A DNA stretch of 52,785 nucleotides from Acidobacteriota bacterium (GTDB lineage Bacteria > Acidobacteriota > UBA6911), in assembly GCA_003225335.1 (NCBI GenBank), contig QHZE01000453.1, positions 1-52,785 on the forward strand, in the 5' to 3' direction. How positions within the stretch are numbered: the stretch's first letter is position 1; every line of letters begins with the position of its first letter. A program made the translations under genes and the position numbers. This document shows positions 39,350 to 44,945 of the stretch, one piece after another. The notes beneath the pieces are model-generated. The model ran no database searches. It saw only the letters and a program-made list of their open reading frames with translations, and was not told the DNA's origin.

Positions 39350-40390
39350 ATGAAAACGACGATTAGGCTGACAGAGATGGTCTCGTGCGCCGGCTGAGCG
39401 AGCAAGCTGTCCGCGGGCAGCTTGGCTCAGGTCCTGAGCCAGATCCCCAGATACAAACACCCGGAAGTTCTTGTGGGCTATGATACGGCCGACGATGCCG
39501 GGGTATACAAGATCGACGAGGAAAGGGCGCTGGTCCAGACAGTGGATTTCTTCACGCCCATTGTAGATGACCCTCACCTCTACGGTTGCATCGCAGCCGC
39601 TAACTCCCTTAGCGATGTGTACGCAATGGGCGGTACCCCGATCACCGCCATGGCCATAACCTGCTTTCCAGAAAAAGGCGTGGATCTTCAAGTATTGGCC
39701 GACATCATGAAGGGGGGTGCGGAGAAACTCCACGAGGCAGGTGTCGCACTTTTGGGCGGACACAGCGTGGCAGACCCTGAGATCAAGTTTGGTTACTCGG
39801 TGACAGGTCTCATCCACCCCGGCCGAATCTTTACCAACGCCGGAGCCCGGCCGGGCGATGTTCTCGTTTTGACCAAACCCTTGGGCATAGGCATTCTCAC
39901 AAGCGGCATAAAATTCAACAAGACCTCGCAAGAGGCCGCCCAGAAAGCGATTGAAGTGATGAGTTCCCTGAACCGTTCGGCGGCCGAGATCATGATGCGA
40001 TACAACTGCCACGCGGTAACAGACGTTACAGGAAACGGGCTGTTGGGTCACGCTTTCGAAATGGCTAACGCGAGCAACGCCACTCTCCATATAGATGCCG
40101 GGAAAGTTCCCTACATTGCAGAGGCTTATGACCTTGCGAAAGCTGGACTTCTGCCGAGAACAGTCGCTTCAACTTGGAAAATGATCCAGCCCTTCACGGA
40201 GGTAAGCCCCGACGTGCCGGAACCACTCAAGAACATTCTCCTGGATCCACAAACCTCTGGAGGACTTCTTATATCATTGGATTCAAAAGACTTACATGGA
40301 ATACTGGAGGAAATGTCGCGATCTGGTGTCCAGGCCGCACAGATTGGACACGTGAAACCTCCCAAGGGCCCGAGAATTCTGGTGCAGTAG
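39350..40390 (+). CDS. selD: Selenophosphate synthetase, selenocysteine-containing
   Basis: Reading from ATG 39350, the frame runs MKTTIRLTEMVSCAG, then TGA (39395-39397), then ASKLSAGSLAQVLSQI and on to 40390: 346 residues with Sec16. Sec16 is three residues before K19, matching catalytic Cys17 and Lys20 of E. coli SelD. Downstream ATP/metal motifs: DTADDAGVYKI, QTVDFFTPIVDD, ANSLSDVYAMGG, GHSVADPEIKFGYSVTG. A start after the TGA would remove the whole catalytic loop. SelD makes selenophosphate from selenide and ATP. No selA, selB or tRNA-Sec gene is in the window. Confidence 0.92.
39400..39428 (+). promoter_or_regulatory. Candidate bacterial SECIS hairpin in selD
   Basis: Two bases after the UGA, GAGCAAGCTGTC (39400-39411) pairs with GGCAGCTTGGCTC (39416-39428) as 12 base pairs with one bulged G and a CGCG loop. 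The apical loop is 15-18 nt after the UGA, close to the usual position for SelB recognition. The loop sequence differs from the E. coli fdhF type. Confidence 0.75.
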
Positions 40391-40913: not shown

Positions 40914-42461
40914 ATGGAGCAAAAGGCTGTTTATCGTTCCCGGGTACCGGGGAGCTCCCGGCTTTCCGAAAAGCCAGGCGAATACCCATTCACGCGCGGG
41001 ATACATAGAAACATGTACCGCGGGCGCCTCTGGACGATGAGGCAGTATGCCGGCTTTGGTACCGCGGGCGAATCCAATCGGCGATATCTTAACCTTCTGG
41101 GCCAAGGGCAGACCGGAATCAGCATCGCATTCGACCTGCCCACTCAGATGGGGTTGGACGCGGATAACCCTCTGGCAGCGGGTGAGATAGGCAAGGTCGG
41201 TGTCTCGATCTGCACGCTCCGGGACATGGAAATCCTGCTGAAAGATATTCCTCTGGATCGTGTCTCGATCTCCATGACGATTAACAGCACCGCGCCAATC
41301 CTGCTGTGCATGCTTCTCGGCATCGCGCGGCGCAGGAATATCGACTGGAACTCGCTGCGAGGCACTGTTCAAAACGATATCCTCAAGGAATACATCGCGC
41401 GTGGCACATATATCTACCCTCCAGGACCTTCTCTCCGCATTATTGCCGACACCCTGGCGTTTTGCCGGGCAGAGGTCCGCAACTGGAATCCGATTTCTAT
41501 CAGTGGCTACCACATCAGGGAGGCCGGATCCACCGCGGTTCAAGAGGTGGCTTTCACGTTGGCCAACGGGATCGAATACGTCCGTTGCGCTCTGCGGGCG
41601 GGCCTTGGGATTGACGAGTTTGCAAGCACGCTGACCTTCTTCTTCAATGCCCACAACAACTTTCTGGAAGAGATCGCCAAGTTTCGCGCGGCTCGCCGCC
41701 TCTGGGCCCGGATCGTGAGAGAGCGGTTCGAGGCCACGCAACCGCGTTCCTGGACATTGCGCTTTCATACGCAAACTGCGGGAAGTACGCTTACTGCCCA
41801 ACAGCCCGAAAACAATATCGTGCGGGTGACACTCCAGGCTCTTGCCGCCGTGCTGGGTGGCACCCAATCTCTTCACACGAATTCACTGGATGAAGCGCTC
41901 GGACTGCCAAGTGAAAGGGCCGCCCACACGGCCCTGCGTACGCAGCAAATCCTCGCCTGCGAAAGCGGAGTAATCAACACGGCTGATCCGACTGGCGGTT
42001 CCTATGCGATCGAAGCCTTGACGGACGAAATTGAGTCCGAAGCCGCCACCTACATTCAAAAGATAGACCAGATGGGTGGAATGCTGCGGGCAATCGAGGC
42101 GGGTTACGTTCAACGTGAGATTCAGGAGTCGGCATACGAGTACCAAAGGAGCGTGGAGTCTAGCGAGCGCCTCGTTGTCGGAGTCAACAAATTTGCAAGG
42201 GATGAGCCGGCTCCTGTCGATGTTTTCACGATCGATGATTCGGTTGCGGAATCCCAGCGGAGGGCGCTCGCGGAATTAAGGAACACAAGAGACAGTAGCG
42301 CAGTACGTCGCGCGCTGGAGAGTCTGCAACAGGCGGCAACGGGGCAAGACAACCTTGTTCCTCGCATCCTGGAGGCAGTTGAAGCGCTTGCCACCGTGCA
42401 GGAGATTTCGGACTGCCTTCGGGGCGTGTTTGGAGAGTATCAGCAATCCGACCCATTCTGA
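40914..42461 (+). CDS. Methylmalonyl-CoA mutase family, catalytic chain only
   Basis: A 515-residue acyl-CoA mutase large chain with the substrate-binding barrel: [59 protein letters not shown], and later [17 protein letters not shown]. The C-terminal cobalamin-binding domain (with DxHxxG) is missing, so a separate small B12 subunit, not in this window, is expected. Related subfamilies include methylmalonyl-, ethylmalonyl- and isobutyryl-CoA mutases; the exact substrate is not decided here. It is not linked to epi or meaB genes. Confidence 0.88.
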
Positions 42462-42675: not shown

Positions 42676-43596
42676 TTAAGGCCTCGGCAAAAGATAGGAG
42701 ACGGCGATTCCGGCATATGCGACTATTGACATCAAATAGATAAGCTTCCAAGATACGTGGTTTTCACTCGCGCTCAGTTCGTCCGGGTTCTTCAAGATCC
42801 GGTAATCGATGTATGCCCCTATTAGCGGAAGGGAGAACGACAAGGTATAGATTCCTGCCGGATGTCCGGTCAGCTTCCCCAGTCTCACAAGTATGGCCCA
42901 CAACAGAAAGGGAAAAACAAAGAAAGGGGAGATAAGGAGCGCCGCTTTACGTACGCCGTAGAGCACAGGAAGAGTCTTGCAGCCGCCCGCGCGGTCTCCC
43001 TCCATGTCGGAAAAGTCTTTCGTGGTGCCCGCCCCTAAGATGAATAGACCCAGGACTGAACTGAGGAGCCACGGTTCCACCACCCAGATTGTCTTGACCG
43101 TCGACCAGCCGGCAACGGGAAGCAGAAACCCGCGGGGTACCGCCATCGTGATGTTGGCAAGAATTCCCCAGCGTTTGGTCCGGAATGGAGGCACGGAATA
43201 AGAGACAGTGAAAATTCCAGCAAGAACCGCAAGAAGCAAGCACTGGTAATTGATGACCCAGGCGAGCAGGAGTCCAACCACGAAAGCGCCCAAAGTGAAA
43301 CCGGCGGCCTCTCGGCTTCTCAGTCTTCCGGAAGGCAGGGGTCGCTGAGGTTTGTTAATGCGGTCGATCGGAAGGTCGAACATCTGGTTCAGCCCGTTGG
43401 ATCCTGCATTCAGCACAACAGCCATCACGGCCCCCAGCACGACATTCCACGCCACCCTCCAGGGTGAATGCGTCCATGACGACACGAACCTCGGCTGCGC
43501 TCCCCAGGCCGCGAGCCCCCCACATATCATTCCGACCCCGGGCATCAGCAGTGTGAAAGGCCGCGAAAACTCGCAGTAAATCCGCCAATCCTTCAT
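42676..43596 (-). CDS. UbiA-family prenyltransferase
   Basis: A 306-residue membrane prenyltransferase with about eight or nine helices. The first aspartate-rich motif is NQMFDLPID (N70, D74, D78) and the second is DFSDMEGDRAGG (D194, D197, D201), which bind the Mg-diphosphate of the prenyl donor. The overall pattern is nearest to chlorophyll/homogentisate/geranylgeranylglycerol-phosphate prenyltransferases rather than to MenA or UbiA proper; that is judged by eye. The gene starts 8 nt after the end of the fused kinase gene, so they are almost surely one operon. Confidence 0.9.
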   Translation of the reverse strand: MKDWRIYCEFSRPFTLLMPGVGMICGGLAAWGAQPRFVSSWTHSPWRVAWNVVLGAVMAVVLNAGSNGLNQMFDLPIDRINKPQRPLPSGRLRSREAAGFTLGAFVVGLLLAWVINYQCLLLAVLAGIFTVSYSVPPFRTKRWGILANITMAVPRGFLLPVAGWSTVKTIWVVEPWLLSSVLGLFILGAGTTKDFSDMEGDRAGGCKTLPVLYGVRKAALLISPFFVFPFLLWAILVRLGKLTGHPAGIYTLSFSLPLIGAYIDYRILKNPDELSASENHVSWKLIYLMSIVAYAGIAVSYLLPRP

Positions 43597-43604
43597 CTTG
43601 GCGT

Positions 43605-44945
43605 CTATAGGTAGACCTTGGCGAACAACATAGCCAAAAGCATGGACACCGTCGTATGAAAGGCATTCAATAGTTGACCGCTTCTACCGTTGTCCGACTG
43701 GCCGTGAGCCGCCAGGTAACTCTCCAGGTGTACGGAAAACGAAGCGGAAAGAAGAATGCAGACCATTCCTATGGGTGAAATCAACTTGAACAAAACGGCT
43801 TCAAAGCCGATCATTGCGGCTGCCAAGAGCCCCACGGTACTTCCGGCGAGAGACACTGCTCCCGGGGTCCCTCGCGGCACATGTTCCAACGATGTGAGTA
43901 GTATCGTGTGCCTCCCCAGAAGCTGGCCGAGCTCCGTGGATATTGTGTCATATATCGCGGTAGCCACAGCAGCGGTGAATCCCACGTTCGTGATTTGTTT
44001 ACTGTCGAAGAAAATAGAGGCCAGTCCGGCAACAAGCGGTGCAAACCCTTTTCCCAAGACATGGCGGGCCGATCTCCTGCCAAAATCGGGCTGAGCTGTC
44101 CCCTCGAGCTGTTTTCGTCGATATCCGATTTTTGAGAAAAGGCTGCCCAGCACGAAAAACGTTGCGAGTAGTAGAAATCCTTGCGCTCCGAAAGAAGAAT
44201 AGACCACGCTTCCCATCACGACTCCGCAAACAAGGCCAGACAGGGTAAGAGTCTTCAAAGACAATGCGGCCAATCCGGTGCCTGCGGAGACCAACAAACC
44301 CGTAATCCACTCGTCCCAGGCCCAGTTTGAAGGCCACCTGGCCAAGGACAACCCACGCAGGAAAGTTCCTCCCGCCAGGCAAATAGTGAGATTGTCGTCC
44401 AATGGAATCTGCAGAGTTTCGACGACGGAGCATACTATTGCTGTAGTTGTAGAATAAAGAAGGCCGCGTCGCGCATTCCAATTCCCTGAATGGGGTGGGA
44501 ATTCCGTCCAGAGGAGGAGAACAAAACCAGCCAGGGAAGAGAAAAATACGCTGCTGCACGTGCCAAGCCAGGTCTTGTTTGAGTTCCACGGCAGTCTGGC
44601 GCGACCGAATCTCCGTCCAATGAGGTTTGAGGCGGCGTCCCCTACAGAAAGGTTTGCCCACGCAACGGCGGCCAGATGCTTGTCCTCCCGGAAGAAGAGG
44701 ACAAGAGTGAAGACCGAAAACGCGTACGCGAGTTTGCCTGCTGAGTATCCCTTGATTTGTTCTTCCGGGCGTTGGGTGACGCGGAACAGCCTCGGTGAGA
44801 CGAAAGCCGCGTAAAGAACCGCAACGAATGCGAATATCAGAGCCTGCTCCCATGTAAGAAATCTCAGCAAGAAGGCAAACGCAATTGGAGCCAGGTGCTC
44901 CAACTGGCGAAGGTTCTCGTTGTGCTCAGATGCCGCGATTCGCAT
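43605..44945 (-). CDS. Fused isoprenol kinase (SEC59/VTE5-like) and DUF92 (VTE6-like) protein
   Basis: A 446-residue polytopic membrane protein with two family halves. Residues about 15-205 carry the CTP-dependent dolichol/phytol-kinase motifs: WANLSVGDAASNLIGRRFG (about 96-114), LPWNSNKTWLGTCSS (118-132) and VETLQIPLDDNLTI (175-188). Residues about 215-446 match DUF92/TMEM19: RSARHVLGKG (291-300), ATAIYDTISTELGQLLG (329-344), VPRGTPGAVSLAGSTVGLL (356-373) and the closing LLNAFHTT. In plants VTE5 phosphorylates phytol and VTE6 phosphorylates phytyl-phosphate. A single fused chain could make the prenyl diphosphate used by the UbiA enzyme next door. That function is inference. Confidence 0.88.
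   Translation of the reverse strand: MRIAASEHNENLRQLEHLAPIAFAFLLRFLTWEQALIFAFVAVLYAAFVSPRLFRVTQRPEEQIKGYSAGKLAYAFSVFTLVLFFREDKHLAAVAWANLSVGDAASNLIGRRFGRARLPWNSNKTWLGTCSSVFFSSLAGFVLLLWTEFPPHSGNWNARRGLLYSTTTAIVCSVVETLQIPLDDNLTICLAGGTFLRGLSLARWPSNWAWDEWITGLLVSAGTGLAALSLKTLTLSGLVCGVVMGSVVYSSFGAQGFLLLATFFVLGSLFSKIGYRRKQLEGTAQPDFGRRSARHVLGKGFAPLVAGLASIFFDSKQITNVGFTAAVATAIYDTISTELGQLLGRHTILLTSLEHVPRGTPGAVSLAGSTVGLLAAAMIGFEAVLFKLISPIGMVCILLSASFSVHLESYLAAHGQSDNGRSGQLLNAFHTTVSMLLAMLFAKVYL

Follow-up and report, generated by a model that had tools for sequence, protein, structure and literature searches.

A SEC59/DUF92 fusion protein of Acidobacteriota and its co-occurrence with a subfamily of UbiA prenyltransferases

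In plants, phytol and phytyl phosphate are phosphorylated by VTE5 and VTE6, respectively, with CTP as the preferred phosphate donor, and VTE6 represents COG1836 (review, PMC9782597). An earlier study by Gerdes and co-workers had already tied COG1836 to phytol-phosphate metabolism (PMC3223725). For Euglena longa, which has no chlorophyll to recycle, VTE5 and VTE6 were proposed to serve a de novo supply (PMC7580956). Archaeal DUF92 proteins were predicted by Makarova et al. (2015) to be kinases of the isoprenoid pathway, and the same work described a fusion of a SEC59-like domain with arCOG02245/DUF92 in Methanosarcina barkeri, Mbar_A3310 (PMC5898192).

The DNA analyzed here, referred to as the window, is a stretch of 52,785 nucleotides from an Acidobacteriota bacterium (contig QHZE01000453.1). 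To our knowledge, proof of kinases for prenol salvage is limited to photosynthetic organisms and, as regards the first step, to malaria parasites, and we know of no enzyme activity established for any of the fused proteins. The window encodes a fusion that fits the Mbar_A3310 type as described (PMC5898192), with an N-terminal SEC59-like domain and a C-terminal DUF92 domain in one chain and a conserved aspartate in both. Since this architecture is known from archaea, it is not in itself new. In the part of the literature covered, no description of the Acidobacteriota fusion, of an operon of short-chain dehydrogenase, fusion and UbiA genes, or of the UbiA subfamily was found. The same coverage yielded nothing that joins polyprenol kinase with UbiA and an operon, phytol kinase with Chloracidobacterium, or Acidobacteria with UbiA and phytol.

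Gene, domains and conserved residues of the fused protein

The fused protein of 446 amino acids is encoded by a single open reading frame on the minus strand (43605..44945), which starts with ATG and is single-copy in the window genome. All motifs quoted in a preliminary description of this DNA were found in this one polypeptide. Homologues fused over their full length, with 25–49% identity, are present across the phylum, and an alignment of 15 fused proteins contains 25 invariant residues. Consequently, the fusion gene is real. Scanning of genome contigs with the single fusion protein yielded one weak archaeal match, which covered the N half only and was followed by an open reading frame that is not DUF92. 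Among plasmids, DUF92 was matched only once and weakly, in Thermomicrobium roseum.

The C-terminal half (43605..44321, minus strand) belongs to DUF92/COG1836 and is predicted to be a prenyl-phosphate kinase of the VTE6 type. Residues 219–422 matched PF01940 (DUF92, Pfam) with 134.1 bits against a cut-off of 27.5 bits (E = 7.2e-39). The cut-off of the NCBIfam model TIGR00297 was missed by the window fusion (124.8 versus 205.85 bits) and likewise by the fused relatives scanned. The N-terminal half (residues 1–208; 44322..44945, minus strand) is predicted to be a CTP-dependent lipid-alcohol kinase domain of the SEC59/PF01148 type. This half gave no Pfam match when the full-length protein was scanned. 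Scanned alone, it matched PF01148 (CTP_transf_1) with 22.6 bits, just below the cut-off of 24 bits (E = 1.1e-4). The N halves of 7 of the 15 relatives also matched PF01148 (E up to 1), the best of them with E = 3.5e-7.

The N half was modelled with AlphaFold (pLDDT 91.8), and the model was compared with the PDB using Foldseek. The top four matches were CdsA of T. maritima, with probabilities of 0.91–0.99 and E-values of only 0.08–0.31. CdsA was recovered by the N-half model alone and not by the full-length model (pLDDT 87, pTM 0.81), for which no significant match was obtained (best match MurJ, TM about 0.15). A phmmer search of the PDB with the single fusion sequence gave no match, nor did searches with the N-half and C-half profiles. 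When the two halves were aligned with each other by hhalign, the N half matched the C half with a probability of 79 (E = 1.6e-5), and GDAASNLIGRRFG was placed opposite YDTISTELGQLLGR. This profile match and the fold and family matches indicate two distantly homologous domains of the CTP-transferase superfamily in one chain rather than unrelated ones, and the halves share a fold family. Of the checks suggested in the preliminary description, family searches led to DUF92 for the C half and structure prediction to a CdsA-type fold for the N half. Its claim of two kinase-type halves was supported by these matches and by intact conserved residues. The shared superfamily is the one expected for CTP-dependent lipid kinases and cytidylyltransferases, not a single unrelated family.

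For the N half, 15 fused proteins were compared with 6 stand-alone proteins that resemble this half. D103, G110, K124, G128, E176, D184 and N185 are invariant in all 21 sequences, and all are present in the window protein. They lie in the motifs G102-D103...G110 with the invariant aspartate (VGDAASNLIG, 44616..44642), K124-G128 (KTWLG, 44562..44576) and E176...D184-N185 (ETLQIPLDDN, 44391..44420), all on the minus strand. For the C half, 15 fused and 10 stand-alone DUF92 proteins of the same phylum were compared. All 25 sequences share K278, R291, D333, T334, E338, G340, G359, G362 and G368, and the window protein again has each of them. D333-T334...E338-x-G340 forms the motif DTISTELG (43926..43949, minus strand), and G359, G362 and G368 lie in VPRGTPGAVSLAG (43842..43880, minus strand). 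As judged from these alignments, both halves have kept every residue that is conserved in their stand-alone relatives, and no conserved residue is absent from either half. The two refutations foreseen in the preliminary description, a single unrelated family and missing catalytic residues, thus did not overturn it.

The motifs of the N half presumably resemble those of VTE5 and SEC59. PF01148 also spans CTP-dependent diacylglycerol kinases and CDP-diacylglycerol synthases, so that the substrate is not fixed by sequence alone. The earlier designation of the N half as VTE5-like went too far: this half was not separable in the present analysis from dolichol, polyprenol or diacylglycerol kinases.

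Two homologous halves which both keep the conserved aspartate might also represent a built-in dimer for one single reaction, for example the phosphorylation of polyprenol or diacylglycerol, while the donor for UbiA would come from elsewhere. Enzymes of the CdsA type are indeed dimers. Nevertheless, we regard such a single-step enzyme as unlikely. The halves represent two separate families, whose invariant motifs differ (GD..K..E..DDN versus K..R..DT..E.G..G..G) and are each retained by the stand-alone proteins of that family, and the co-occurrence with UbiA described below better matches a prenyl diphosphate product. Moreover, the plant counterparts of both families catalyze successive steps (PMC9782597).

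The adjacent UbiA protein and the gene neighbourhood

Downstream of the fusion lies a gene for a UbiA-superfamily prenyltransferase of 306 amino acids (42676..43596, minus strand; PF01040, E = 1.5e-41, 142.8 bits versus a cut-off of 34.2 bits). The two genes form an operon. The stop codon of the fusion and the start codon of UbiA are separated by 8 nt (TAG ACGCCAAG ATG; 43597..43604, minus strand), exactly the distance given in the preliminary description. No promoter-like or terminator-like site was seen in this gap. Both Asp-rich motifs of UbiA are intact. In the first motif, N67-x2-NQ-x2-D74-x3-D78-x2-NK (43327..43410, minus strand), the residues N67, N70, Q71, D74, D78, N81 and K82 are conserved in 39 of 39 UbiA neighbours. 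The second motif, K193-D194-F-x-D197-x2-G-D201-x4-C-x-TLP (42967..43020, minus strand), has K193, D194, D197 and D201 in 39 of 39 and C206 in 38 of 39. This nearly invariant cysteine after KDFSDMEGD, together with ENHxSW, is the signature of the subfamily. Only two other UbiA proteins are encoded in the window genome.

In a profile search of the PDB the nearest solved structures were archaeal DGGGP synthase (6m31, 1.4e-25) and chlorophyll a synthase (9sau, 5.7e-23), both of which use C20 prenyl diphosphates. Phosphoribosyltransferases were absent from the PDB matches of this profile. The best-scoring NCBIfam models were ChlG, DGGGPS and homogentisate phytyltransferase, and all equivalog cut-offs were missed widely.

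The closest solved structure would fit an archaeal-type isoprenoid ether lipid, for which UbiA would add the second geranylgeranyl ether and the kinase would supply geranylgeranyl diphosphate. This explanation is highly unlikely: PcrB/GGGP synthase was not found in the window genome, which is 97% complete, and the DGGGPS models of NCBIfam scored 102–107 bits with cut-offs of 296–353 bits. The relationship of UbiA to homogentisate phytyltransferase and ChlG might likewise suggest a product akin to tocopherol or chlorophyll, such as plants and cyanobacteria make. A flavoprotein of the geranylgeranyl reductase family, encoded in the window genome and just under its cut-off (155.9 versus 158.8 bits), points in the same direction; its gene lies behind that of a cyclopropane fatty acid synthase, with an overlap of about 20 nt (C739, L105, 227–2673). 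We consider this type of product scarcely credible. BchB was not found in the window genome, in agreement with the non-photosynthetic host presumed earlier. Tocopherol cyclase (PF14249) also gave no match there, in a search of unproven sensitivity that found none over the cut-off in 14 controls. The cut-offs for ChlG (109.5 versus 313 bits), BchG (95.1 versus 212.3 bits) and homogentisate phytyltransferase (94 versus 226 bits) were far from reached. With BchB, GGGP synthase and tocopherol cyclase missing from the window genome, the product is unlikely to be chlorophyll, an archaeal-type lipid or tocopherol.

The gene neighbourhood was surveyed in the window and in 80 further loci that contain the fusion, whole or in large part, giving 81 loci from 41 GTDB families. 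Adjacency was counted from HMM envelopes, since long open frames in GC-rich loci distort distances based on open reading frames. UbiA is located directly downstream of the fusion on the same strand in 40 of the 81 loci (20 of the 41 families). An extended short-chain dehydrogenase (SDR) gene lies directly upstream in 54 loci from 29 families, and the complete order SDR, fusion, UbiA was found in 27. The SDR is absent beside the fusion in the window and in its nearest relative from the same family (L022); as an obligatory partner of the fusion it was therefore rejected. The top NCBIfam model for five upstream SDRs scanned was HpnA, a putative sugar epimerase, always below the cut-off. At other sites of the window genome, the closest homologue of the SDR proved to be a genuine HpnA (471 bits against a cut-off of 368). 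The two-gene pathway of the preliminary description leaves out the SDR, which directly precedes the fusion in most loci though not in the lineage of the window, and the cell-envelope genes LptD and RmlD, which lie further upstream in many loci.

LptD (PF04453) was found further upstream of the fusion in 29 of the 81 loci, and genes for RmlD-like and other nucleotide-sugar SDRs recur upstream in many families (loci L042–L101). Several gene pairs at the fusion loci overlap by 4 nt. These genes and overlaps hint at an envelope-related role. They are compatible with an envelope-glycan carrier, for which the kinase would make polyprenyl phosphate, UbiA would add phosphoribose or another sugar phosphate and the frequent HpnA-like SDR would act as a sugar epimerase. 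The mycobacterial decaprenyl-phosphate phosphoribosyltransferase is a precedent for a UbiA-type enzyme that attaches phosphoribose. The LptD and sugar-SDR context keeps this explanation alive; even so, we hold it to be improbable. A second kinase would be superfluous for a carrier monophosphate, the UbiA matches in the PDB are the prenyltransferases named above and not phosphoribosyltransferases, the best NCBIfam scores likewise belong to the models named above, and the window and its nearest relative have no SDR beside the fusion.

Two further genes of the window were noted on the plus strand. The selenide, water dikinase SelD (39350–40390) is probably a selenoprotein, as judged from its reading frame. 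The called open reading frame starts with TTG at 39422, and reading of the in-frame TGA at 39395–39397 as selenocysteine would give the N-terminus MKTTIRLTEMVSCAGUASKLSAG, with selenocysteine at the usual catalytic position. No Rfam element was matched in the SelD region. The other gene (40914–42461) encodes a methylmalonyl-CoA mutase catalytic-domain protein of 515 amino acids, and its open reading frame includes no B12-binding domain.

Distribution of the fusion and the UbiA subfamily in the phylum

The distribution of both proteins was analyzed in an even sample of 297 genomes of the phylum Acidobacteriota. The fusion was called at E ≤ 1e-60 or as fragments at contig ends, the UbiA subfamily at E ≤ 1e-60. 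The fusion is present in 95 genomes and the UbiA subfamily in 82. All 82 genomes with the UbiA subfamily carry the fusion, and none of the 202 fusion-less genomes carries the UbiA subfamily (Fisher P = 7e-60, which ignores shared ancestry and thus overstates the significance). Both this distribution of the fusion among Acidobacteriota and the restriction of a UbiA subfamily to fusion-bearing genomes of the survey are new. The link between fusion and UbiA that had been proposed from a single locus is thereby extended well beyond it.

In 23 of the 82 genomes fusion and UbiA are located on different contigs; thus, their link is not solely physical. Gain and loss of the two are coupled within families too. 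In one family (f1) the genera g1 and g2 have both proteins and the genera g3 and g4 have neither. In family f18, as well as in two f39 genomes (8.3–8.4 Mb), DUF92 is encoded as a stand-alone protein and the UbiA subfamily is missing (loci L120–L129).

The fusion without the UbiA subfamily was observed in 13 genomes, where the kinase must be used otherwise. Three of them belong to one genus (g80), which we take to be Chloracidobacterium. Chloracidobacterium is phototrophic, and its own chlorophyll synthase could naturally consume a prenyl diphosphate in place of this UbiA.

Proposed function and comparison with known systems

We consider it likely that the fusion is a bifunctional membrane kinase which converts a prenol to the prenyl diphosphate and feeds a dedicated UbiA enzyme. 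The SEC59-type N half would use CTP to phosphorylate an isoprenoid alcohol, giving the prenyl monophosphate, and the DUF92 half would add the second phosphate to yield the prenyl diphosphate. The adjacent UbiA would then move the prenyl group to a membrane acceptor. In many relatives the HpnA-like extended SDR encoded upstream would be part of the unit, where it may act on the acceptor or convert the isoprenoid alcohol to the aldehyde and back. The two kinase reactions, CTP as the donor, the isoprenoid substrate and UbiA as the consumer are thus predicted roles. That the fusion makes the donor for UbiA is supported most strongly by the phyletic pattern, which ties this UbiA subfamily to the fusion. 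The fact that the subfamily never occurs without the fusion in the sampled genomes points to a shared prenylated lipid. Salvage, the term used in the preliminary description, is one possible reading of the route, and recycling and de novo synthesis are the others.

Some observations count against a pathway of kinase and UbiA. The upstream LptD and sugar-SDR genes suggest an envelope-glycan context which it leaves unaccounted for, the N half of the window protein is just below the Pfam cut-off, and the 13 genomes mentioned above have the fusion without the UbiA subfamily.

More tentatively, and with somewhat less than even confidence, we propose that many Acidobacteriota make an undescribed prenylated membrane compound via a dedicated module of SDR, fused kinase and UbiA, with a donor derived from an isoprenoid alcohol and not directly from a prenyl diphosphate synthase. 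If the proposed function is true, a fusion locked to one UbiA subfamily in some three dozen GTDB families, made up mostly of non-model bacteria, would offer a tractable bacterial two-step kinase system, and an uncharacterised prenyl lipid would be implied in a phylum with membranes that matter to geochemistry. The fusion would also allow a direct test of what DUF92, an uncharacterised family of many archaea, does.

Compared by description, Mbar_A3310 resembles the window fusion in its domain order, in the assignment of both domains to the cytidylyltransferase superfamily, in the retained catalytic aspartates and in its predicted role as a kinase of the isoprenoid pathway, but it is archaeal and its reported conserved context is uppS and not UbiA and SDR (PMC5898192). 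CdsA CDP-diacylglycerol synthase (4q2e, 4q2g) shares the fold family of the N half, although the E-values noted above are weak, TM is only about 0.4 and the motifs differ. DGGGP synthase and chlorophyll a synthase belong to the same superfamily as the window UbiA and have both Asp-rich motifs. In contrast to them, the window UbiA misses the equivalog cut-offs, carries its own signature (C206, ENHxSW) and was found in the survey only in fusion-bearing genomes. Plant VTE5 and VTE6 correspond to the proposed function of the fusion as two CTP-preferring kinases that act in turn on a prenol and feed prenyltransferases (PMC9782597), but they are separate plastid proteins, whereas the fusion is one bacterial chain in a non-phototroph.
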